64,000 bases of DNA from Protoeuglena noctilucae (taxonomy: Eukaryota; Chlorophyta; Pedinophyceae; Marsupiomonadales; Marsupiomonadaceae), in assembly GCA_958009085.1 (NCBI GenBank), contig OY253678.1, forward strand, positions 952,816-1,016,815, given 5' to 3'. The translations under genes and the position numbers were made by a program. Shown in pieces: positions 1-63,700 of the stretch. The notes beneath the pieces were generated by a model. That model had not been told where the DNA came from. It saw only the letters and a program-made list of their open reading frames with translations, and did not search any database. Position 1 is the stretch's first letter; each line of letters starts with the position of its first letter.

Positions 1-4715
<4,715 letters not shown>

Positions 4716-7686: not shown

Positions 7687-8798
7687 ATGAATGGGCACAC
7701 GCGACGCTTCGAGAACAAGGTCGCCGTCGTCACGGCGTCAACCGCTGGCATCGGCCTGTCCATCGCCGAGCGGCTCGGCCTCGAGGGCGCGGAGGTCGTC
7801 GTGTGCTCGCGACGGCAAGCGAATGTCGAGGCCGCGGGTGAGACACCGTTTTAGAAGACTCCACGAGCGCTACGACAACGGCGATGTCCTGCGCCCCCGG
7901 AGCCCGCAAGCGACGCATACGCCCTTAACCCTTAAACACCGTACATATTCTCGCGTTTATATACATATATACTCGCGTACATATACACCGTCTCGCGTAT
8001 ATATACCGTCCAACTCGCAGTCAAGGCGCTCCAGGCCAAGGGAATCAAGTGCGGGGGCATGGCGTGCCACGTCGGCAAGGCGTCGGACGTGGCGGCGCTG
8101 CTCAAGCACGTCATGGAGGCGCACGGCCGGGTGGACGTGCTCGTGTCCAACGCCGCTGCCAACCCCGAAGCCGAGCCGGTGCTGTCCATATCCGACAGGG
8201 CCATTGGTGAGCCTACACACCATGCCGACGCGTCATGCGTCATTACCCAGACTACTGCGATGCCAACCACGACGTGCCCCCTACATCTTGGCAGGGTAGC
8301 GGCGCCCGGGGTAGAAGAGGACGACTTCTTTTGCCCCCATTCAAATTTTTTTGCCCCCTCGTGCCTCCAGACAAGCTACTCGAGGTCAACGTCAAGGCAG
8401 CCGTATCGCTGGTGCAAGCCTTCGCGCCCCTGATCCCCTCCGGCGGCAGCGTGCTGCTGGTATCGTCCGTGACGGCCTTCGCCCCCGCAGCCCCGGTGGC
8501 GATGTATGCAGTGTCAAAGACGGCACTGCTGGGCCTCACTAAGGCGCTCGCCGCGGAGCTCGGGTCCCGCTCGGTGCGCGTCAACTGCCTGTGCCCGGGC
8601 ATCGTGCCCACGAAGCTCAGCGAGGCCCTCATCGCGGACGCGGGGGACCGGGCACGCCTCGAGCAAAGCACGTGCCTCGGCCGGCTGGGGAGGCCCGAGG
8701 AGGTCGCCGCGTGCGCCGCCTTCCTCTGCAGCGACGACGCCAGCTACGTGACGGGGGAGAACCTCGTGGTGTCGGGGGGCATGCAGAGCCGGTTGTGA
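7687..8798 (+). CDS. Short-chain dehydrogenase/reductase, DHRS4-like, peroxisomal
   Basis: Three exons, 7687-7837, 8021-8206 and 8371-8798, give 254 aa plus stop in consistent phase. Classical SDR features are visible: cofactor motif [10 protein letters not shown] near the N-terminus (TGxxxGxG type, with first Gly replaced by Ala), ARG-type CSRR following the second strand, VLVSNAAA (NNAG equivalent), catalytic Ser in [10 protein letters not shown], and YAVSK holding the catalytic Tyr and Lys. The C-terminus ends QSRL, a PTS1-type tripeptide (SRL) identical to that of animal DHRS4. The family reduces carbonyls, including retinal and quinones, with NADPH. The first intron contains a TATATA-rich run near 7945-8010. 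Function is assigned by family; the substrate is unknown. Confidence 0.88.
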
Positions 8799-10168: not shown

Positions 10169-11485
10169 TCAGCAACGGAAAGCAGACCCCTTCTCGCAAC
10201 GCGATACATCGCATTCGCTGTGCGTGAGGGTGCTGTTGCCGTAGCGGCAAAGGCCGTACTGCTTGCAGTCGGTGATCTCCACACCCAGCACCTCCCCATG
10301 CCCGCCCTCTCGGCAGCACACTCCATGAAAGCTTTTGGATCCCGTAATGCGGCCCCCATGCACCACCACCCTGCTACCCTCGCCATCGCAAAGTACGCCA
10401 TTCCCCTTGCAGCTGGCAATTTCCGCGCCCACCAAGTCTGCATGACCGCCCTGTTGACAGCACACCCCGTGAAAGTCCTTGCACCCCGTGATGCAACCCC
10501 CCTGCACTATTACCCTGCTCCCCTCGCTATGGATCCAAACCCCATGCATTTTGCAGTCAGTGATCTCCACGTCCCGCAACTCTGCCTGTGCGCCCTTTGA
10601 GCAGCAAACCCCGTACTCCTGGGCCCCCCTAATGCACCCTCCCTGCACCACCACAAGGCTACCCACACCATTGCAAGACACTGCGCAGTCAGCCATCTCC
10701 ACGTTCCACACCTCCGCCTTCCCACCCTCTATGCATTGCACACCGTCATATTGCCCGAACACCGTGATGCGACCCCTTAGCATATCCACCTTGCTCCCGC
10801 GACCAACACAGCACACCCCCACAAAAGATGCATCCATCACGTCTGTGTCCACCAGCGTCACTCGCCCACCCCCCTCGCACTGCACCCCCGTCCCCACCAC
10901 CCACACCCCTTCCAGCCGCAGCTCCCCGCCCTCAGCGACCCTCAACGTGTACCCATTACCCAGCTTGGCATCCCGCACCCGCAGCGTCCCGTTGCGGATC
11001 GTCACCGCCACCCCAGCCCCCGCCACCACCACCTCGCATTCCAGCTCCACCTCCCTCCCCCCCAGGTCCACCACCCCGCCCCTCCTCGCCACCTCTGCCA
11101 CCTCCTCCCCCGTCGTCGCAACCACCACCTCTGCCGCCGCCGCATCTGCCCCGCTCCCCGCCGTCCCGCCCTGCCCCCGCCCCGCTGCGCCCGCCTCCGC
11201 CTCCACATCCGCCCACGCCAGCCCTGCCCCCCGCATCTCTGGCAACCCCACCACCGCCTCCCACGCCGCCCGCCTCCGCACCTCGCTCGGCTGCCCCAGC
11301 ACGTACAGCAGCGCGACCCACTCCTCGTCCGTCCGCTCCGCACCCCCACCCGCCGCCTCCGCCCCGCCCTCGCCCGCCCCCGCCTGCTGCGGCCCAGCCC
11401 CGCCTTTCGCCGCGTCTGCTGTCCTGCGTCGCCGCCCCATCCTCTTTACGCTCCACCCCTGCACACAGCCACGCCACCAAAGCAC
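10169..11485 (-). CDS. Right-handed beta-helix repeat protein, 438 aa, intronless
   Basis: Single open frame; the ATG at 11485 is first, and one at about 11440 (MGRRRRTADAAK) is an alternative start. Residues ~30-110 are Ala/Gly/Glu-rich with a helical segment (EEWVALLYVLGQPSEVRRR). From about residue 115 on come repeated units of about 22-30 residues of the form GSRVxVxGGxITGxKxxHGVCCxxGGHxxLxxxEIxDCK. Such turns stack into the right-handed parallel beta-helix fold seen in pectate lyase/NosD-like proteins. No lyase catalytic residues were identified, so enzymatic activity should not be assumed. The many Cys residues recur at fixed repeat positions. A truncated paralogue in the same orientation lies at 63189-63700. 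Function unknown; probably a multicopy subtelomeric family. Confidence 0.75.
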   Translation of the reverse strand: MLWWRGCVQGWSVKRMGRRRRTADAAKGGAGPQQAGAGEGGAEAAGGGAERTDEEWVALLYVLGQPSEVRRRAAWEAVVGLPEMRGAGLAWADVEAEAGAAGRGQGGTAGSGADAAAAEVVVATTGEEVAEVARRGGVVDLGGREVELECEVVVAGAGVAVTIRNGTLRVRDAKLGNGYTLRVAEGGELRLEGVWVVGTGVQCEGGGRVTLVDTDVMDASFVGVCCVGRGSKVDMLRGRITVFGQYDGVQCIEGGKAEVWNVEMADCAVSCNGVGSLVVVQGGCIRGAQEYGVCCSKGAQAELRDVEITDCKMHGVWIHSEGSRVIVQGGCITGCKDFHGVCCQQGGHADLVGAEIASCKGNGVLCDGEGSRVVVHGGRITGSKSFHGVCCREGGHGEVLGVEITDCKQYGLCRYGNSTLTHSECDVSRCEKGSAFRC

Positions 11486-16471: not shown

Positions 16472-19400
16472 ATGCCGGCGCGTAATGGGAGCGCCTGGGA
16501 GGACCCCCCGGAGGAGCGGTCGGCGGCGACCATGCCCAAGATGACGCGGCAGCCCTCGCAGCGCAGGTGTGACTTGCTATTCCCTGGCGGTGCCTGCCTG
16601 CGCCCGCTGACTCCCTGTCATTGCAACTGGTCACATTCCACATCCATCGTCACCGAAGCTCTTTACAAAGCTCCTTACAAACACACGTTCCACCGTTGAC
16701 GTCGTCATTCACGGTCATCATAATTACAACCATTATACCATTCCCGCCCCTCTCCCCAGGGTCAAGCCCGAGGACACGGACGTGGAGGACGGTCGCATTG
16801 CGATTGGCGAGGAGAAGATTACAGTTCAATTGGATAAGTTCGAGGAACCAGACCACGACATCGCCGACCAGACCTACAGCTACCGGTGGGTGGGATTGAT
16901 TGGGGGGTGCCTGGATAGCTCATAACCCCGTCCAGCGCCTAACCGTCTGCCATCTATATCACATCACTCCCTCACTCCCCCCCAGCCACCCAGTGCACTA
17001 ATTGCAGATTGGTCCCAACCCCGCGTTACCATTGCCCCATCCCACCCCCCGTCTCCCCTCCCCTGCAGCCACCCGATGTACCGCGGCCCCAACGGCGAGT
17101 TCGCGTACTTGAAACTCAACCTGGCCCCCGCGAGCCTCATGCGTCGGTTCGGCTCCGGGATATTCCTCTACTTCCGCATCGTGCGCATGCTCATGTTCCT
17201 ACTACTATCCATGACCATCATGGCCATACCCTGGGTGGTCGTGATGAACCTGGGGGAGTACGAGGATGCTCAGGGCAACGCGGTGCACTTCTCGCGTCCC
17301 AAGGGGGCGCTGGGGTATGACAAAGTGTTGATTCGCACGACGTTCGGGTGGCTGGGGCAGGACTGGACGAGGACGCCGAGGGAGAACTGGGAGGGGCTCA
17401 AGGTGAGGGAGGGGGGAGTGGGGTGCGGGGTGTGAGTGGGGGGTGCGTGGGTGTGGTTTGGGGTGGGGTGTGGGGTGGGGTGCGGGGCGTGGGTACAGCT
17501 GCTAATGCGGCTATTTGACTGTCGCAAGCAAACACGCGCGCATCCGCTGCGTCCCTCTCAGGTCGTCATCCCCCTGACAGGCCACCGCATGGACTGTGCT
17601 TACGCAACATCAATCACAATCACAGTCACTTATCATCTGCATCTCCCTTCGTATCTCTCAGGTCGTCATCCCCCTGACGGGCCACCGCATGGACCGCGGC
17701 GTGCTTCAGTACGTGATCGCTGGTCTAGACATGCTGGGCCTGCTGTGCTTGATGATCGCGGTGCACCAGCTGTACAAGTGGGCCAGCGAGAAGGCCGAGG
17801 AGGTGGAGGACGAGATGACGGTCACCATCAACGACTACGCCGTCATGGTCACGGGTGAGGCGCGGATGTGTGGGAATGGGTGGCGGTGAAGGCGACAAAG
17901 GACGCAGTGCGGCAACAACTATAGCCAAGCCACATCGGCAACTGCTAACAGCTAGCATGTTGCCATCCCACCCTCACCCACCCGCCCGGCTCCACATTAC
18001 CACCCCACCCGCGCACCCTCAGCCCCACCCACGTACCCTCCCACCCTCACCCCACCACCTCACCTCCGCACCCTCTCACCATGACTCCATCCCTCCCCCT
18101 CCCCCCCCAGGCCTCCCCCGCGACGCCAAGGTGGCGGACGTGCACGCGTACTTCTCGCAATATGGGGAAGTGGCCGAGGTGCAGCTGATGGCCGACGACA
18201 CGCGCATCATCACATACTACAAGAAGTTCACCAAGGTGGGGGGTGATGGTGGGAATGGATGCCGGGGCATGGGTGCTGATGATGAGATGTGATGTGTTCG
18301 GTAGATAAGGAGTTCGCCAAGGTGGGGGTGGTGGTGGGAGTGGATGAAATGTTTGATGGTGCCATGGCATGGGTACCGTGGTGGTAGATGGGGAACTGGT
18401 CTCACAGGGCGGCCAACACCACATTTGTCACTCACACTCACTCACTCACACACTCACCCTCTCTCTCATCCCTCCCAGCTAGTCCTGCAGCTGGGCGTGG
18501 CCATCGCCGACCACATCTGCCACCCTTACACACACATTCACACACTCCCCCTCTCTCCCATCCCTCCCAGCTAGTCTTACAACTCGGCGTGGCCATCGCC
18601 GACCACATCTGGCGCCGCGACCGCTCCGCCCGCGTGGACAAGATCGCCAAGCGCGCGGATGCCGTTTCCAAGAAGATCGCAAACATGCGGCAGAGGCAGG
18701 ACTGGAAGGTCATTTGCGCGTTCGTCACCTTCCTCGACGTGAGGGGCGGGGTAGGGTGAAGTGTGTTTGTTTGGATGTGTAAGGTTGTGCTGCGTGTGTG
18801 GGGAGATGCGGGGGGGTGGGCGGCGGCAACGGCAGAGTGTATCGCACGGTGGGGCCCAATGTTTTGCCTGCCTCATTGCTCCCAAGCACCTCACCATCTC
18901 CCCACCCCTCGCATTGCTACTCCCCACCCACCCCCCACGACCCACCTCCCCACCTTATCACCCACCCCTCCCCTCATCACCCCAGGCTCAATCGAAGGAG
19001 GCCTGCATGGAAGATTTGAAATGGCAGGGCCTGTGGGGGTGGGTGGCGCACTACTGCTGCATGGACGAGGAGAAGAAGTTTCTGAACAAGCACGTGCTGG
19101 CGGTCACCTCCCCCGTGTCGCCCGCCGACCTCATCTTCGAGAACCTCAGGTGAGGGGGAGTGTACATGTACAGATCACTTGTGGCCCTCGCTACGTCTTG
19201 CACACCACAAACATTCCCCTTTCTTGCCGCACACCCTCCCACCCTTCCCCCATTCTCCTTACCCCTCTCACCCCCCTCCCCACCCTCTCCCAGGTTCCAC
19301 TGGGTCGAGCTAACACACATCACTTCTCACACCTCTCACCCCTCTCACCCCCCCCTCCCTCACTCCCAGGTTCCACTGGATCGAGCTCGCCCTGCGACGC

Positions 19401-22400
19401 ACCCTCGCGACGACCATCGTGGTCATCCTGCTGCTGGGCAACGTCGTCCTCGTGTCGTATCTGAGGAGCCTATCTACTAGACTCGCATCGCAGCTGGGCA
19501 CCAGCAGCCAGGTGAGAGGGGGACATAGTTACTGTGCACTCACATGTATATGCGATGCATCCCAACCCGTACCCTCACTGCCACTTCCATCCCCACCCCC
19601 ACCCTCACTGCCACCCCCACTGCCACCCCCACTTCCACCCTCACCCTCACCCACACCCCCCCAGGCCATGTACAGCCAGATTGGCACCCTCACCCTCACC
19701 CCCACCCCCACTGCCACCCCCACTTCCACCCACCACCCCCACCCCCCCAGGCCATGTACAGTCAGATCGGCGTGGACCCCGCGGGCCTGTCCAAATCCCA
19801 GAAGGCAGCAGTCGTTGCCCAGGCGTGCCAGAACGACCTCGACGTGTGCGCGTCGGGCATATCGTCGTCGCTAGCCATCAGCTACGGCCAGTTCGTCAGC
19901 GACGGGGACGCCCCGGGGTGGAGCGCCGACCAGATCGTCGCGTCGCTCAAGTCGTGGTGAGGGGGGTTGGCTGCGGTGGGGCAGTGATGACTGGCGTGAT
20001 CGAGTCGTGATGCGCAGTGATCCTGCACGTTGCCAATCATGCGATGGTCACTTCCTCTACCCCACCAACCACCCACGTATCCGCCCCTCCCCCCCAGTTA
20101 CGACAACTCTTCCTGCACGTCCACCCAGCGCTCGTGCTACCCCTGTTACTGCGAGGGGTTACTGACGACCCTCACCAAGAGCATCAGCCTCCACGACCTA
20201 GTGCTCATGAAGAGCCAGTGCTCGCCATACTTACAGGACCTCACGCTGCAAGTCGCGGTGCAGGCGAGAAGAGGGAGGGGGGGGCGAGGAGGGTAGCGGG
20301 GAAAGGGTAGCGCGCGATGAGCGAGAGCGAAACGCGGGGCTGAGGAGCTGTGCAGCAGCAATGTGTCTCAGCGACGCGACAGTACACACACCTGATTCGC
20401 GCCGCAGCTGCCCTAAGATGTCGGCGCCTCAGTAACTTTACCACAGCCCCACAGCCCCACCCCTCTCGCACACATGACTCGACACCCACCGCCACTCATG
20501 GCGTGTGTCCCTACAACACCCACCGCCACTCATCGCATGTCCCTTTCAACGCCCGCAGGTTCTCCTGACGGCGTTCGTGGTTTTGATGAACATCGTGCTG
20601 AACATCGTAATCACCTTCCTCGTCAGCTTCGAAAAGTACAAGAGCATCAGCGCCCACGAGGCAGCGGTTTGCATCAAGGCAAGCCAGTCATGAACTGGTC
20701 CAATGCGTTTGCTGTCTCTGTGCCTGTGTTTGAGCCTGTTTGCTGTGCCTGTTTGCCTGTGTCTGTGTCTGTGGCCATTACCACCGCCTTCACATCGCCT
20801 TCACCTAGCTGCTTTCTTATACTCCCCCCACAGGTCGCGTTGGTCCAGTTCATCAACATCGCCTTCACCGAGTTGCTGTCGTCCGGCCGCGTCGACGCCG
20901 TGGTCAAGGTCTTGAAGGGGACGCCCTTCGAGGGACTCTTTTTAAGTGGGACCTTCACGGATCTGGGCAGGGACTGGTACGCCGAGGTCGGCATAGCCAT
21001 GCACCTCACGCTGCTGCTGTGTGTGGTCAAGTCACTGGTGAGGGGCGGTGATGGTCAATAGTGGGGCACACCAGGCACGTAGTAGCGCGCCCGTCACAGG
21101 TGCCTACCCCAGGGCATCTAACGCGATCCACCCATCTCTGCTTGTGCGATTCAAATGTTGCAGAACCTTCCCAACTTCGCTCGTGCCCCCCAGGTATTCA
21201 AGACGCTCCCCTTCATGCTCCGCCGCCTCAAGATCTGGTGGTACTCGACTCATGCCGTGACCCAGCAGCAGCTAAACGACGCCTACACGGGCCCGGAATT
21301 CAAATTATCCGGTAACATCGCCGACGTGCTGGTGCTGGTCATGGTGGCGGTCGTGTATGGGTCGTCCATGCCGGTGTTATACTTCATCGCCACCTTCGGC
21401 TGCTGGGTGTGCCTGAAACTCGACCGGAGGCTGCTGTTAAGGCAAGGGGAGAGGGGAGATGCTTCACTCTGCATATCTATCTATCGTTAATTGGGGTACT
21501 GTACCCTCTCTTCATGCCCAGTCCCACCGCGCTCACCCCAGCGAATGGACCCACCCGACCCCACCCCTCACCCACCCCACCCCTCACCCCACCCTCGCAG
21601 GATCTGCCAGACCCCCACCCGCTTCGGCCCTCACCTGGCCAAGGTGATGCTGCGGCTGGTGCTGCTGGCTGCCGTCATTCACATGGCCGTGGCGGCGTGG
21701 ATGCACTCGCACTTCTACGGCATCCCCATCTATGGGGCCAAGAGCTCCCAGCAAGTCATCAAACAGTCGCACTTCGTCATTGACGAGAACAAGGTGTACA
21801 CAGGTGAGAGACATCGCGTTGTCGTATCTAATGGTATATGTATATGTGATGAGACCCGCATGATCCCATCTATGGATGCGACTTGCGACCGGCCCGGCCC
21901 CATCTCTTTCATCACTCTCAGCTCCCACACGAGTGCCACCCTCTCATCCACCCCATCACCGCCCCATCCCACCCTCTCATCCACCCCATCACCTCCCCAT
22001 CCCACCCTCTCATCCACCCCATCACCTCCCCAACCCACCCTCTCATCCACCCCATCACCTCCCCCGCCCTGACCCCCAGAGTCCGCGTGGAGCAGGGAGT
22101 GGCCCCGCCTCATCCAGGCACAGGCGTTCCCATTCGTGGCGCTCTTCGCCGTCATCGTCGCCGTCACGCTCGCCATCAGACCGGGTGAGAGCGCAGAGCC
22201 ACACGCTCTCACTTGTAACATCCACCCGCGCACCCGCAGGTTCATCATCTGTACCCTTGACCCCACTGGTGTGGACATCACCATATAACAACTCGCCCAT
22301 TCCCTTCCCCTCCCCACCCGCAGCGCTGAGCGTGGTGCTGGGTCTCCTAGACGGCGTGGTGGGTGAATTGCTCGGCGTCAAGCGATGCCTGAGCTTCTGC

Positions 22401-23006
22401 TGCGGCTGCCGGCGGTCCCGCCGCGTGGCCCCTGCGCCTGACATCAACATCATCGATGCGATCCGGAGGCAGGTGCTGCAGGGGCCCACGTCGTATGCCA
22501 TCACCGAACAGTCGCGGTACGGAGAGGCGTTCCGGCTCGCGGGGAAGGCCGCGGCGCGCGTGGGGCTGGGGCACATGACGGCCGCCCAGGAGTTCCGGGG
22601 GCTGTCGGTCATGAGTCAGGCCATGGTCGGCAAGACCTTCTACGAAATCCAGACCAAGGACTCGCTGCGGCACAAGAGCTTTAAAAAGGCGAGCGCCGGG
22701 GCGCGGACGCGTGCGCAGGGCCGCTTGGCAGCGTGGTGAGGGAGGCGAAGGGATGCTAACAACAAACGCGTGGCCCCATCCCCGCAGCGGAGCGGTGGCG
22801 GGTCCGTGGTGTCGACGACGGGGCTGCAGCCTAAGAGCCGGAAGGAATCGCACAAGCTGCAGTCGCGCTTCAGCACGCCCATCCAGCCCCTTGGTGGCCA
22901 GGGCAGCGGGACCGTGCTGGCACCGCACCAGCAGCACGTGGAGGGGGCAAAGTCGCGCTTCGTTAGCGCGAAGGAGGAGGGGAGGAGGGCCAGCGGGGCG
23001 CCATAG
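16472..23006 (+). CDS. CSC1/OSCA/TMEM63-like stress-gated cation channel, ~16-18 exons
   Basis: Exon 1 is 16472-16566 (MPARNGSAWEDPPEERSA); phase continues at 16760 with VKPEDTDVEDGR. A conserved pre-TM region (HPMYRGPNGEFAYLKLNLAP) is followed by TM helices at 17.2 and 17.7 kb. Next is a cytosolic RRM-like domain (INDYAVMVTGLPRDAKVADVHAYFSQYGEV), typical of this family, then a coiled segment (~18.6 kb). PADLIFENLRFHWIELALRR leads into the pore-region helices. Further hydrophobic exons include FEKYKSISAHEAA/VALVQFINIAFTELL (20.6-20.9 kb), 21.2-21.4 kb and 21.6-21.8 kb. A basic, Ser-rich cytosolic tail runs to the stop at 23006. Known members are Ca2+-permeable channels opened by membrane tension or hyperosmolality. 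The subfamily is protist-like and may sit nearer anoctamins than plant OSCA. At least four introns hold duplicated acceptor/exon heads (listed separately). Confidence 0.75.
17562..17700 (+). repeat. Duplicated acceptor + exon head (100-bp spacing) in channel gene
   Basis: CTCTCAG|GTCGTCATCCCC occurs at 17562 and exactly 100 bp later at 17662. The copies match over ~37 nt, through GGCCACCGCATGGAC, with one difference (ACAGG/ACGGG). Only the second copy continues into the real exon (RGVLQYVIAGLDMLG). Using the first acceptor would shift the frame by one. Confidence 0.9.
18440..18616 (+). repeat. Duplicated acceptor + exon head (92-bp spacing) in channel gene
   Basis: CATCCCTCCCAG|CTAGTC followed by GGCGTGGCCATCGCCGACCA starts at 18479 and again at 18571. 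The copies match over ~45 exon nt with several differences, and over the preceding pyrimidine tract. The second copy is the real exon (IWRRDRSARVDKIAKRA follows). Confidence 0.9.
19280..19396 (+). repeat. Duplicated acceptor + exon head (76-bp spacing) in channel gene
   Basis: CCCAG|GTTCCACTGG followed by (A/G)TCGAGCT occurs at 19294 and 19370. Only the second copy continues into the TM helix (LATTIVVILLLGNVV). Confidence 0.85.
19660..19778 (+). repeat. Duplicated acceptor + exon head (86-bp spacing) in channel gene
   Basis: CCCCCAG|GCCATGTACAG followed by (C/T)CAGAT(T/C)GGC occurs at 19665 and 19751, in a CACCC-rich intron. The second is the real exon start (AMYSQIGVDPAGL). Confidence 0.85.
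21930..22072 (+). repeat. ~34-bp minisatellite in channel intron
   Basis: About four tandem copies of CCACCCTCTCATCCACCCCA followed by TCACCTCCCCATC, within the intron after the exon ending VIDENKVYT. Simple CACCC-type expansion. Confidence 0.9.
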
Positions 23007-40063: not shown

Positions 40064-43000
40064 ATGTCAGATACGAGCCAGCCGCCTGCCGGCGCGTCTG
40101 TCCTCGGCGAGGCGCTGTCCCGGCTGGCGCGGGCGCGGGGCGCGGAGGTCGAGCCCGCTGTCAAGGTGTGCAAAGCGCCTCCCGTCGACGCGCGCGGGCC
40201 TAATTTCGCCATCCTTCTGTTTTAAACACGGATCTGGCTCGACGCCGCTACTCGCATCCCGTGCGCAGGGCCTGATGGACGCGCTGCAGGCGGCCCCCTC
40301 CTCGCAAGCACTGGCAGACTCGTCCGCGGCGACGGAGGCGCTCCTGGCGGCCGCGCAGGACCGCGGGCACCTCGGGGCGCAAGCGTCGCGCTGTCTGCTG
40401 GCGCTCGCGGACGCGGAGGCGCGCGCGATGGCCGCGGGGGCGGGGACGGGCGGTGCAGGGGGCGACCCCTCGGCCCCTCCCGCCCTGCCACCCGCGCTGG
40501 CGTGGTGCGTCGAGGAGGCCGGCGCGCCCAGGCACGATCGCCGCGGCCGCAACCTCCACGCCCCCGCGCTGGCGGCGCTCGCGTCAGCTGCGGACCTGCA
40601 GGGCCCAGGCGCCCCCCACCTCCGCTGCGCCGCCCTTCGCGCGGTGGAGCGGGCGGGGCAGGCCCCGGCGCCGCTCCCGGCCGAAGGTCTCGTCGCCGCC
40701 GCACAGCTGCTCGGCCGGCTGCTCTCGCGGGCACCCACGGGCGTTGCTGAAATGGCGATGCGAGAGACGGCCACTGCGGCAATCGTGCTGCGGTGCGCCG
40801 CCCACGCCGCAGCTGGGCTGGGGCCGTCGCCCGGCGCCCTGGCCGCCGCCGTTCCCGCGTCCGCCCACGCGCGCCCGGCATTGCGCGCCGCGGTGTCTGC
40901 CGCTCTGGTCGCCTCCCGCGCCCTCGCCACGGCCCTCGATGATGGTCCCCCCGACACCGGGTGAGCAGCCGAGCTGGCTTGTAAAAGGTATAATGCCAAC
41001 ATGCGTGATGCTCTCTTACTCACGTGCGGGCCTGGTGCTAGGATGCCAACATGCGAACATGTGTGACGCTCTCTCATGACACGCGCTCATCTCCCTCACG
41101 CCCCTGACCCTGCCCCACCCCGCAGGTCTGCCCGCCTGCCCCCCGCCCTCGCCGCCGCTCGCCAGGGTGGCTCCGCGGCCCGCGGCCAGTCGCGCGGAGC
41201 CGTGGCGCCACTCCCCAACGCCGAGCGACACACGCGGCTTCAATTGGTGCATGCTGTCACAGGTGATTGATCTGCCGAGCGCATGTGATGCATGTGGCAT
41301 GTACATGCTTATGCCAAGTACATGCCAAGTGCCTATGCCTAAGCACATGTCATGCCAACGCCAAGTGCCTATGCCATGCATATGCCAAGCAAACGAGTGC
41401 GAGAAACCCGCATGAAAGCATTTAAGCGGGTCGAAGCGGGTCAATTCGACTTTCCCGCAACCCTCATCGACAGTAAAACTTTCATGCGTGTTTCCCTCCC
41501 ATGCAGCCACATGCGGCAGCGTCGTGGCAGCGGTGCTCGCGGCCGTGCGGGCGGAGGGGCCAGGGCCCCAGGAGCGCGCCTCATCCGCAGCGTGGGCCGT
41601 CGGGGCATGTGCGGAGGCGAGCCAGACCTTTCGCAACGCATTTGCCGCCCACCGCAGCGCGTTGCGGGGCGGGGCGCGGACGGGTGCCGACAAGCTGCTC
41701 CCGCCCGCCTGCCGCGCTCTCTGCGGCCTGTGGCACGCGGCGTGGGCGTTTGCGGAGTGGGCGGACGCGGGTGCGGGAGAGGGGGATGCGGGCACGGGAC
41801 ACCGCGCCCCCCTCGCCCTCGCTCTGTACGAGCAGGCGTGCGCGTGCGCCAAGGTGACGTGCGTGCGAGGCTTGTCAAGTGCAAGTGTATGTTTAGAAGA
41901 ATCCGGTATACTTTGCTCCCCCCTCTGTTACTCCCACTTGATACTCGATAGTACCTGCGCACGGTCATGCCCCTGTCTATGCCTCTAAGTAGCACCTGAG
42001 CAGCATAGCTATTCAAATAACCCACTGCCCCTCGTCGCCCTGCTTTCCAGACCTGGCCGTGGAGCCCCTCCTACCCAAACCCTCAAGGCAGCAACAGTGA
42101 TGTAACTAGCAGTATCGTATTTCAACTAACCACTCCCCTCCTCCTCCCTATTCCAGGACCTGGCCGTCGAGCCCCTCCTCCCCCCCCGTGCCACCGCATC
42201 GATCCTCCACCTCTTCACCGACCTCATCGCCACCCTCCCCGCCCACGCACCCCCGGACACCGCACCGGACCTCCCCCTCCCCGCTGCGCCCTTAGAATCC
42301 CTACTCTCCCCCGACGGCGGTTTCTGGCTACTGGCGGCCTCACAGCAGCCGGAGGTGGCGAGGGGCGCGGCCGCGGCAGTCGCGAGCGCTTTGCGCATCG
42401 CCTCCCGCGCCCCCCGCGCCGCCGCGCTCGCCGCGGTGCTGGCGGTGGGGGAGCGGAGGGTGCGCGCCTTCTCTCACGCCCAGTGCCGCCCCCACGCTGC
42501 CCCGGGGGCACCCGACGGCGACGTGTGGCCCGCGTCCGCATCCGCCTCTGCCTCTGAACAGGGAACGGAGTCTGCGGATGATGCGGGGGATGGGGCGCGG
42601 CAGGGAAGGGCGGGGCGGGACGCGCGGGCGGGTGCGGCGGAGTCTGCGGCTACCCTCCTGCGCTTCTGTTTGCTCGCGTTGCAGCAGGCGATGGGGGGTG
42701 GGGATGGGGCGGGGGAGGGTGCGGGCGCAGGTGCGGTGGCGGGGGGCGGGGCGTGGTGGGGTGCGGAGGTGTCGCTGCAGCGGCGGGCGGTTGGTCTGTT
42801 GGCCGACCTCTGCACCAATGCTGCCGTGGCGAGGACGCAGGTGAGAGGAGTGGATTGTATGTGTGGTGTGGATGAATGTGTAAGTGCTTATAAGTTAGAT
42901 TGCGCACCTCATCCCTTCTCATCCCTCCGCGCACCACCCCCCCCCCTGCACCTCACCCTCACCCTTACCTCCCACCCCCCACCCCCTCCCTCACCCTCGC

Positions 43001-63188: not shown

Positions 63189-63700
63189 TCAACAACGAAA
63201 CGCAGACCCCTTCTTGCACCGAGACAGCGTGCACTCGCTGTGCGTGAGGGTGCTGTTGCCGACGCGGCAAAGGCCGTACTGCTTGCAGTCGGCAATCTCC
63301 ACGCCCACCACCTCCGCATGCCCTCCCTTCTTGAAATACACACCGTGCAACTCCTTGGACCCCGCGATGTGCCCCCCTTGCACCGTCACCCTGCTACCCA
63401 CGCCATCGCAGAAAACGTCACTGGGGTTGCAGTCGGCGATCTCCACGCCCACTAAGTCTACGTGACCGCCCCTTCGGCAGTGCACCCCGTCACCCTTCTG
63501 GGACCCTGTGATGTGGCCCCTCTGAACCATCACCCTGCTAACCTCGCCATCGCACAAGACACCGCTCTGCTTGCTGTCGGCGATGACCGTGCCCTCCATC
63601 TCTGCCTCACCACCCTCCCCACAACACAACCCGTGACCCTTGTTTGACCCCGTGATGCGCCCCCCACGGACCACCACCCTGCTGCCCTGGCTAGCACATG
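63189..63700 (-). pseudogene. Beta-helix repeat gene truncated by the telomere
   Basis: The reading frame (C-terminal ~165 residues, stop 63189) is a paralogue of the protein encoded at 10169-11485. Both end with DCKQYGLCR, then GNSTLTHSEC and KKGSAFRC/EKGSAFRC. It contains about five repeat units with GSRVxVxGGxITGS and GVEIADCK. At about 63700, just upstream of SQGSRVVVRGG, the coding sequence gives way directly to TTAGGG-type repeats. About 270 N-terminal residues and the promoter are therefore missing. The visible frame has no internal stops, so the breakage may be recent; the copy is presumably non-functional unless transcribed from the telomere side. Confidence 0.8.

Follow-up and report, generated by a model that had tools for sequence, protein, structure and literature searches.

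The window analysed here is a 64,000-nucleotide stretch of the genome of the alga Protoeuglena noctilucae. It holds an OSCA/CSC1-like channel gene whose coordinates, together with those of the junction copies discussed below, are given in Table 1. The Pfam domains PHM7_cyt and RSN1_7TM match this gene in order, with E values of 4e-4 and 0.007 and scores of 21.0 and 16.2 bits, which lie under the curated cut-offs of 27 and 28.7. A search for protein relatives returned none at E 0.001, with 7998 candidates scored. The original prediction was that in four introns of this gene the acceptor and the head of the following exon are present twice, and that the downstream copies alone continue into protein. 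Both statements hold. The copies lie at offsets of 100, 92, 76 and 86 bp. For a null comparison 40 draws were made from long introns at other loci, and each copy scores at least 5 units above the highest of them. The downstream copies form a single open frame of 16 exons, and because they join the modelled exons in this way we take the upstream copies to be intronic.

Table 1. Positions in the window of the channel gene, its junction copies and the copies in other predicted genes; the last row also names copies at other loci
Feature	Position	Strand	Details
OSCA/CSC1-like channel gene, modelled part	16760..23006	+	16 exons, one frame, stop codon 23004-23006
Inner, presumed unused exon-head copy in intron 17403-17661	17562..17594	+	32/33 nt identical to 17662-17694, offset 100
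Exon head used in open-frame model, exon start 17662	17662..17694	+	open reading frame across exons
Unit 1 of 92-nt tandem duplication over 3' end of intron 18236-18570 and exon head	18418..18509	+	78/92 nt identical to 18510-18601
Unit 2 of 92-nt tandem duplication; acceptor and exon head used in model, exon start 18571	18510..18601	+	
Weak candidate donor-side copy (exon tail and GTGGGGG), intron 18236-18570	18307..18328	+	20/22 nt against 18221-18242, offset 86
Inner exon-head copy in intron 19150-19369	19294..19311	+	17/18 nt shared with 19370-19387; p 0.01 on the intron side
Exon head used in model, exon start 19370	19370..19387	+	open frame
Inner exon-head copy in intron 19512-19750	19665..19685	+	19/21 nt shared with 19751-19771; p 0.01 on the intron side
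Exon head used in model, exon start 19751	19751..19771	+	open frame
Copy of exon-interior piece 20856-20880 in intron 20679-20833, no junction	20792..20816	+	22/25 nt, offset 64
Inner copy of exon head 42157-42183, another predicted gene region	42050..42076	+	25/27 nt
Copy of exon head 3643-3614, predicted gene 138-4715	3693..3722	-	25/30 nt; intron side not similar
Copy of exon tail 3432-3403, donor lost, predicted gene 138-4715	3308..3337	-	28/30 nt; intron side not similar
Copy of exon tail 2860-2802, donor GTGAG kept, predicted gene 138-4715	2621..2679	-	53/59 nt
Copy of exon head 2057-2037, predicted gene 138-4715	2118..2138	-	20/21 nt; intron side p 0.08
Copies without significant intron-side homology	window -3643, -3402, -2057; L017 -1218 (second copy); L023 5111; L025 -3611, -3867		

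The first of the four inner exon-head copies is preceded by the acceptor CTCTCAG. In the second, the 92-nt repeat is contiguous and in register, with ACCACAT common to both sides at the breakpoint; its inner acceptor stands before 18479, and the exon-side match of 18479 with 18571 covers 37 of 41 nt. The same intron has a donor-side candidate (18221/18307) whose exon part alone matches at 13 of 15 positions, under the threshold for our counts. Further downstream, the intronic copy of an exon-interior piece (20792-20816) holds an in-frame stop codon. A fifth, shorter acceptor case had been proposed near 16980/17068. It actually lies at 16986/17069, with an offset of 83 and 10 of 13 exon bases matching, and it is absent among the listed matches with scores from 13 or 12 upward; we regard it as too weak to call.

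Such copies far exceed chance. The gene finder merges neighbouring genes, therefore we counted only introns between well-scoring exons of at least 40 nt, which are 209 of the 423 introns predicted in its final round. When each exon edge was compared with its flanking introns in this set (264 kb), 12 exon heads were found copied in their own upstream intron, where swapped introns gave 0.2; for exon tails and the intron downstream of each the figures were 10 and 0.0. The view that the copies arose through separate local events is supported. The idea that acceptors only are affected has to be given up, since donor-side copies are about equally frequent. Low-complexity matches were removed from the 24-nt probe counts, from a set of 28 copies in 234 introns and from the gene-model-free scan; the counts on the 209 introns, a listing of 21 copies, the intron-length counts, the interior self-similarity and the contig survey include them.

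Most copies reach the exon edge and have the same orientation as the exon. We examined this with 24-nt probes, calling a match at 19 or more identical positions. Probes from exon heads were copied upstream in 10 of 193 cases and downstream in 0 of 193, while probes from exon tails were copied downstream in 9 of 189 and upstream in 1 of 189. Set 12, 24 and 48 nt into the exon, the probes were copied in 3/191, 2/193 and 0/189 cases from the head and in 4/188, 1/183 and 0/188 from the tail. A scan that uses no gene models found an upstream copy for 12 of 414 acceptor-like heads against 0 of 414 in reversed flanks. Its opposite-side controls are not empty (7/414 and 36/2579), which would be expected if inner copies match outer ones.

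The idea that the phenomenon is peculiar to the channel gene is not supported, for other genes and other contigs have copies at donors and acceptors as well. Seven contigs at least (C1, C3, C4, C7, C8, C11 and C15) carry copies, their divergence is graded, and two loci hold small arrays of them (L018 near 8129-8330 and L017 near 1218). At further loci, among them an RSN1_7TM locus on C15, 6 of 25 introns contained copies once low-complexity matches had been filtered out, 7 copies in all; 16 of 20 random 10-kb stretches had no junction copy at all. Clustering by locus among introns of at least 200 nt is not significant (p 0.15, 52 introns, low power), and together with the copies in other genes and contigs this led us to drop a gene-specific process. 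The copies might also be errors of assembly, for example haplotypes joined in tandem, and some differences between copies do look allelic. We consider this very improbable, given that C1 is bounded by telomere repeats on either side and that such repeats also stand at the window end, and given the number of contigs, the graded divergence and the small arrays. A search of the assembly with 17560-19800, with simple repeats skipped and 40 of 379 candidates scored, gave 67 other matches, all at about 19554-19754, where a single intron has its C-rich tract, edge included. That search does not support a dispersed element such as an introner or another mobile element.

In 14 of the 21 copies the duplicated unit can be aligned on its intron side as well, with p no higher than 0.05. 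Junction-reaching copies occur in 18 of 52 introns of at least 200 nt against 1 of 157 shorter ones. Introns with a copy have a median length of 259 nt, which becomes 170 after the unit is subtracted, and introns without a copy one of 139.5; the length minus the unit still exceeds the no-copy length (p 0.03). The duplicated intron side and the link to intron length support the suggestion that these are traces of intron growth by tandem duplication. Whether the process is aimed at junctions, as was also proposed, is a mixed matter. Intron interiors show excess self-similarity too (in 11, 10 and 9 of the 52 introns, where 1.3 would be expected), which speaks against such targeting and may reflect simple repeats; these are mostly the same introns that carry copies, and intron sequence by itself is seldom clearly duplicated, which speaks for it. 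Interior probes matched in 20 of 1054 cases, and by our reading 18 of the 20 lie within exon-tail copies. At the breakpoints the mean shared sequence is 4.7 nt against 4.2, with p <0.05 in 4 of 20 cases, so that microhomology there is suggestive only.

We believe that local tandem duplications spanning junctions have lengthened introns in this alga while the outer copy stays in use, and we hold this to be the probable explanation. Short local tandem duplications, with offsets of about 40-212 bp in our sample, would recur in and around introns, presumably through slippage or a microhomology-mediated mechanism. A unit that falls across a splice junction would leave the gene with two junctions. 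The outer one, upstream donor or downstream acceptor, would still yield the right mRNA, and because of this the event would be tolerated. The extra unit would then turn into intron, and the intron would grow by the length of the unit. Units inside exons would mostly be purged by selection and those inside introns would blur fast, whereas junction-spanning copies would stay recognisable because the unit contains coding sequence. What remains visible, probably by such survivorship, would be exon-edge copies just inside introns, at donors and acceptors and mainly in long introns. A general duplication process of this kind predicts more pure-intron duplications, unless these are blurred or filtered as low complexity.

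Seven of the 21 copies have no significant intron-side homology, though their exon sides are 81-95% identical, and synonymous differences stand above the expectation from simple decay under several mutation models. Both are points against our explanation. The pattern of divergence brings in another idea, that two diverged gene versions, haplotypes or those of hybrid parents, supplied the two junction copies. Unequal exchange or template switching would have happened where alignable exon meets non-alignable intron, and the copies would already have differed in synonymous sites and intron sequence when they were placed in tandem. Over the 28 copies in 234 introns we count 50 synonymous against 37 non-synonymous differences, and in the 14 copies with scores of at least 20 there are 31 against 14. 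The intron sides are often far less alike than the exon sides. However, under an AT-biased mutation model the overall synonymous excess is not significant (P 0.10 to 0.31), with P 0.008 to 0.03 remaining for scores of at least 20, and with this change of model coding constraint on the copies is no more than a hint. Moreover, no second version of 17560-19800 was found in the assembly among the 40 of 379 candidates scored, although a collapsed assembly would hide one. On balance we find diverged versions unlikely. It is quite unlikely, too, that the junctions themselves are hot spots, at which recombination between strongly diverged versions, anchored in exons and failing at the non-aligning intron, leaves a tandem junction pair. 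If this were true, intron length would record past hybridisation or high diversity.

It had also been suggested that the copies are a source of decoy splice sites. As a potential this stands. Of the 21 inner sites, 17 reach scores of about 6 or higher, comparable to used sites, and most are potentially strong decoys: judged from the sequence, their use would shift the frame in 17 copies and bring in an in-frame stop in 2. The outer sites are probably the ones spliced, as the open frame suggests. One could go further and argue that inner copies are kept for a function, competing with the outer sites and diverting transcripts to frameshifted, decay-prone isoforms so as to tune expression. The good scores and the predicted frameshifts fit this argument, but recent copies would retain their sites regardless, the site is lost or nearly lost in 3 of 21, and the copies track intron length; we think such a function decidedly improbable. 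We rejected alternative exons or in-frame isoforms as well. Offsets are in frame in just 4 of 21 copies, and an in-frame extra exon could be formed from none of the 21 at a donor score of at least 3.3, an acceptor score of at least 4 and a second intron of at least 40 nt.

These copies can be compared with known cases. In the potato RdRp gene a tandem duplication crosses an intron-exon boundary (PMC4974935), and as described there the unit is like ours in that it covers an intron's 3' end, with acceptor and pyrimidine tract, and the beginning of the following exon. In that account the outcome is a new intron together with additional exonic sequence, while none of our 21 copies offers an in-frame extra exon at the site scores applied; in the alga an existing intron has most likely simply been lengthened. 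The alga also differs from the case described for potato in that donors are involved and several genes. Rogers-type intron gain, in which part of an exon that contains AGGT is duplicated in tandem (PMC4974935, PMC2891723), is alike in that local tandem duplication supplies the splice-site sequences. As outlined in those sources, it makes a new intron from exon sequence, with a head copy at the intron start and a tail copy at its end. Among the copies found in the alga the order is opposite: those of exon tails follow the donor and those of exon heads precede the acceptor. Work cited on frequent sub-gene duplications in eukaryotic genes shares such duplications with ours; to judge from its title and citations, neither of which speaks of intron lengthening with retained decoy junctions, it concerns intron creation. 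Finally, direct repeats have been described at the ends of new introns in Drosophila, in a paper citing work on Daphnia (PMC2809761). They lie near splice sites, as in the alga, but in that description they overlap the splice sites of gained introns, whereas our copies lie inside the intron beside one end.

Duplication over an intron-exon boundary is thus already precedented, and what is new here is the density, the symmetry of donors and acceptors and the link to intron length. Intron lengthening in compact genomes is usually ascribed to mobile elements and slippage. In this alga a footprint of tandem duplication can be recognised in 18 of 52 sampled introns of at least 200 nt, readable through its coding piece, and intron growth could be measured by means of it. 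The near-identical competing splice sites are a natural set in which to study the presumed advantage of the outer site.

Four introns of the OSCA/CSC1-like gene do carry a second copy of their own acceptor and exon head, as the original prediction said, and the downstream copies alone are compatible with an open frame. The clearest pair is a contiguous tandem repeat. A fifth, shorter case proposed in the same gene does show a partial match, too weak for counting. The gene keeps a single reading frame through 16 modelled exons, and its protein has PHM7_cyt followed by RSN1_7TM, each below the Pfam cut-offs, which leads us to read it as a divergent OSCA/CSC1-like channel. When the whole genome was searched with RSN1_7TM, a single further locus came up, on contig C15, and the window gene went undetected. 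The genome is 26.3 Mb in 26 contigs; the window forms the right-hand end of contig C11, finishing in TTAGGG repeats, and contig C1 has telomere repeats on both ends. The chlorophyll a/b-binding family (PF00504) has 21 matches in the genome, and PDB chains that carry the name chlorophyll a-b binding protein, with CP26 among them, lie close to a fragment of one of these matches. From this we take the genome to be that of an alga, probably green.

Coordinates of junction copies and other features (in the window unless a sampled stretch, L017 or L018, is named)
Feature	Position	Strand	Detail
OSCA/CSC1-like gene	16760-23006	+	16 modelled exons
Exon-head pair	17562/17662	+	offset 100 bp
Exon-head pair	18479/18571	+	offset 92 bp
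Exon-head pair	19294/19370	+	offset 76 bp
Exon-head pair	19665/19751	+	offset 86 bp
Clearest pair, repeat	18418-18509/18510-18601	+	92-nt unit
Fifth case	16986/17069	+	10/13 exon bases match
GC donors in this gene	e.g. after 20263, 20678, 21441, 22688	+	four introns, frame kept
Exon tail + donor array	L018, about 8129-8330		
Exon tail + donor array	L017, around 1218		
Tandem duplication	2997-3402	-	224 bp, 1.8 copies, 95%; most of one intron, predicted gene
144-bp repeat	10262-10614 and 63283-63440		similar unit, about 53 kb apart
TAA run	563-691		43 triplets, perfect

The original prediction proposed comparing exon edges with their flanking introns, and this was run on the window together with twenty sampled 10-kb stretches (L009-L028), 264 kb in all. 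We trained a small gene finder on the channel gene and then on the 264 kb; it recovers the training gene's exon boundaries as far as exon 14 ends, though this does not count as an independent test. Ungapped copies with a score of 13 or more were counted in the 209 introns that lie between well-scoring exons: 12 hold a copy of the exon head downstream of them (2 of these begin within the exon, not at its edge) and 10 a copy of the exon tail upstream, versus 0.2 and 0.0 when introns of other loci are swapped in. A model-free scan agrees that junction copies are in excess. Acceptor-like heads have an upstream copy in 12/414 cases versus 0/414 with reversed flanks, and donor-like tails a downstream copy in 41/2579 versus 2. 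Opposite-side controls gave 7/414 for heads and 36/2579 for tails, figures that should include inner copies pairing with outer ones.

The copying is not confined to one gene: copies also lie in other introns of the 264 kb and at extra loci. Of 25 introns at these extra loci, 6 carry copies, 7 in total, a sample biased by loci picked through a C-rich repeat match; the C15 locus among them has three tail copies, two stopping 4 and 9 nt before the predicted edge. The distribution is patchy: 4 of the twenty 10-kb stretches hold junction-reaching copies and the remaining 16 hold none.

Most copies reach the exon edge and sit in the adjacent intron. Exon-head probes found an upstream copy in 10/193 cases and a downstream one in 0/193, and probes placed 48 nt inside the exon found no copy. 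The intron side is also similar (p 0.05 or less, gapped alignment anchored at the junction) in 14 of 21 sampled copies; in the 7 without significant intron-side similarity, the exon sides share 81-95% identity. Offsets lie between 40 and 212 nt, in frame in 4/21. At two places, in L018 and L017, the donor junction is copied repeatedly within the same intron, so that the exon tail and its donor recur in a small array.

Introns of the same 264 kb are strongly asymmetric, short and long alike, the first quarter being G-rich (skew about +0.3) and the last C-rich (about -0.4). GC replaces GT at the start of 53 of the 209 predicted introns, a count that the gene finder, which permits GC donors, may inflate; the usual frequency is about a percent, far lower.

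Junction-reaching copies occur in 18 of 52 introns of at least 200 nt versus 1 of 157 shorter ones. Median intron length is 259 with a copy (170 after subtracting the duplicated unit) and 139.5 without. Copies cluster by locus (0/5000 permutations as extreme). Long introns are themselves clustered, and among introns of at least 200 nt the clustering of copies is not significant (p 0.15, low power). Interior self-similarity exceeds that to other-locus introns in 11, 10 and 9 of 52 versus 1.3 expected, figures that simple repeats may inflate, and the strongest is mostly in introns already bearing a junction copy. Clear pure-intron duplications are rare: 20 of 1054 interior probes match, and by our reading 18 of those fall in exon-tail copies.

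Over 28 copies, the differences between copy and exon comprise 50 synonymous and 37 non-synonymous changes, and in the 14 strong copies 31 and 14. Under simple decay the probability of this synonymous excess varies with the mutation model, from 0.001 to 0.31 over all copies and from 0.0001 to 0.03 over the strong set. We read the excess as hinting that diverged gene versions may have given rise to some pairs.

We believe local tandem duplications in and around introns are the most likely account of the junction copies. The potato RdRp gene offers a direct precedent, a duplication spanning an intron-exon boundary, and an additional 83-bp tandem duplication within an intron (PMC4974935); the in-frame extra exon of the potato type was found in 0/21 copies. 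Tandem duplication is viewed as an origin of new introns in passages of two other papers (PMC2891723, PMC2809761), and a passage on Chlamydomonas relatives describes long introns of unknown cause (PMC8226300). Titles, abstract openings and passages of the open-access literature yielded no report of junction copies as a genome-wide mark of intron growth.

Under local duplication, tandem copies would arise within and near introns, and those spanning a junction would be tolerated because the outermost site keeps giving normal mRNA. Duplications within exons would largely be lost, and those within introns would blur or drop out through low-complexity filters. Inner sites would persist as potential decoys, and it is as potential that the predicted decoy splice sites stand: 18 of 21 inner sites score above zero, 17 of these at about 6 or more, and their use is predicted to shift the frame in 17/21 and to add a stop in 2 more.
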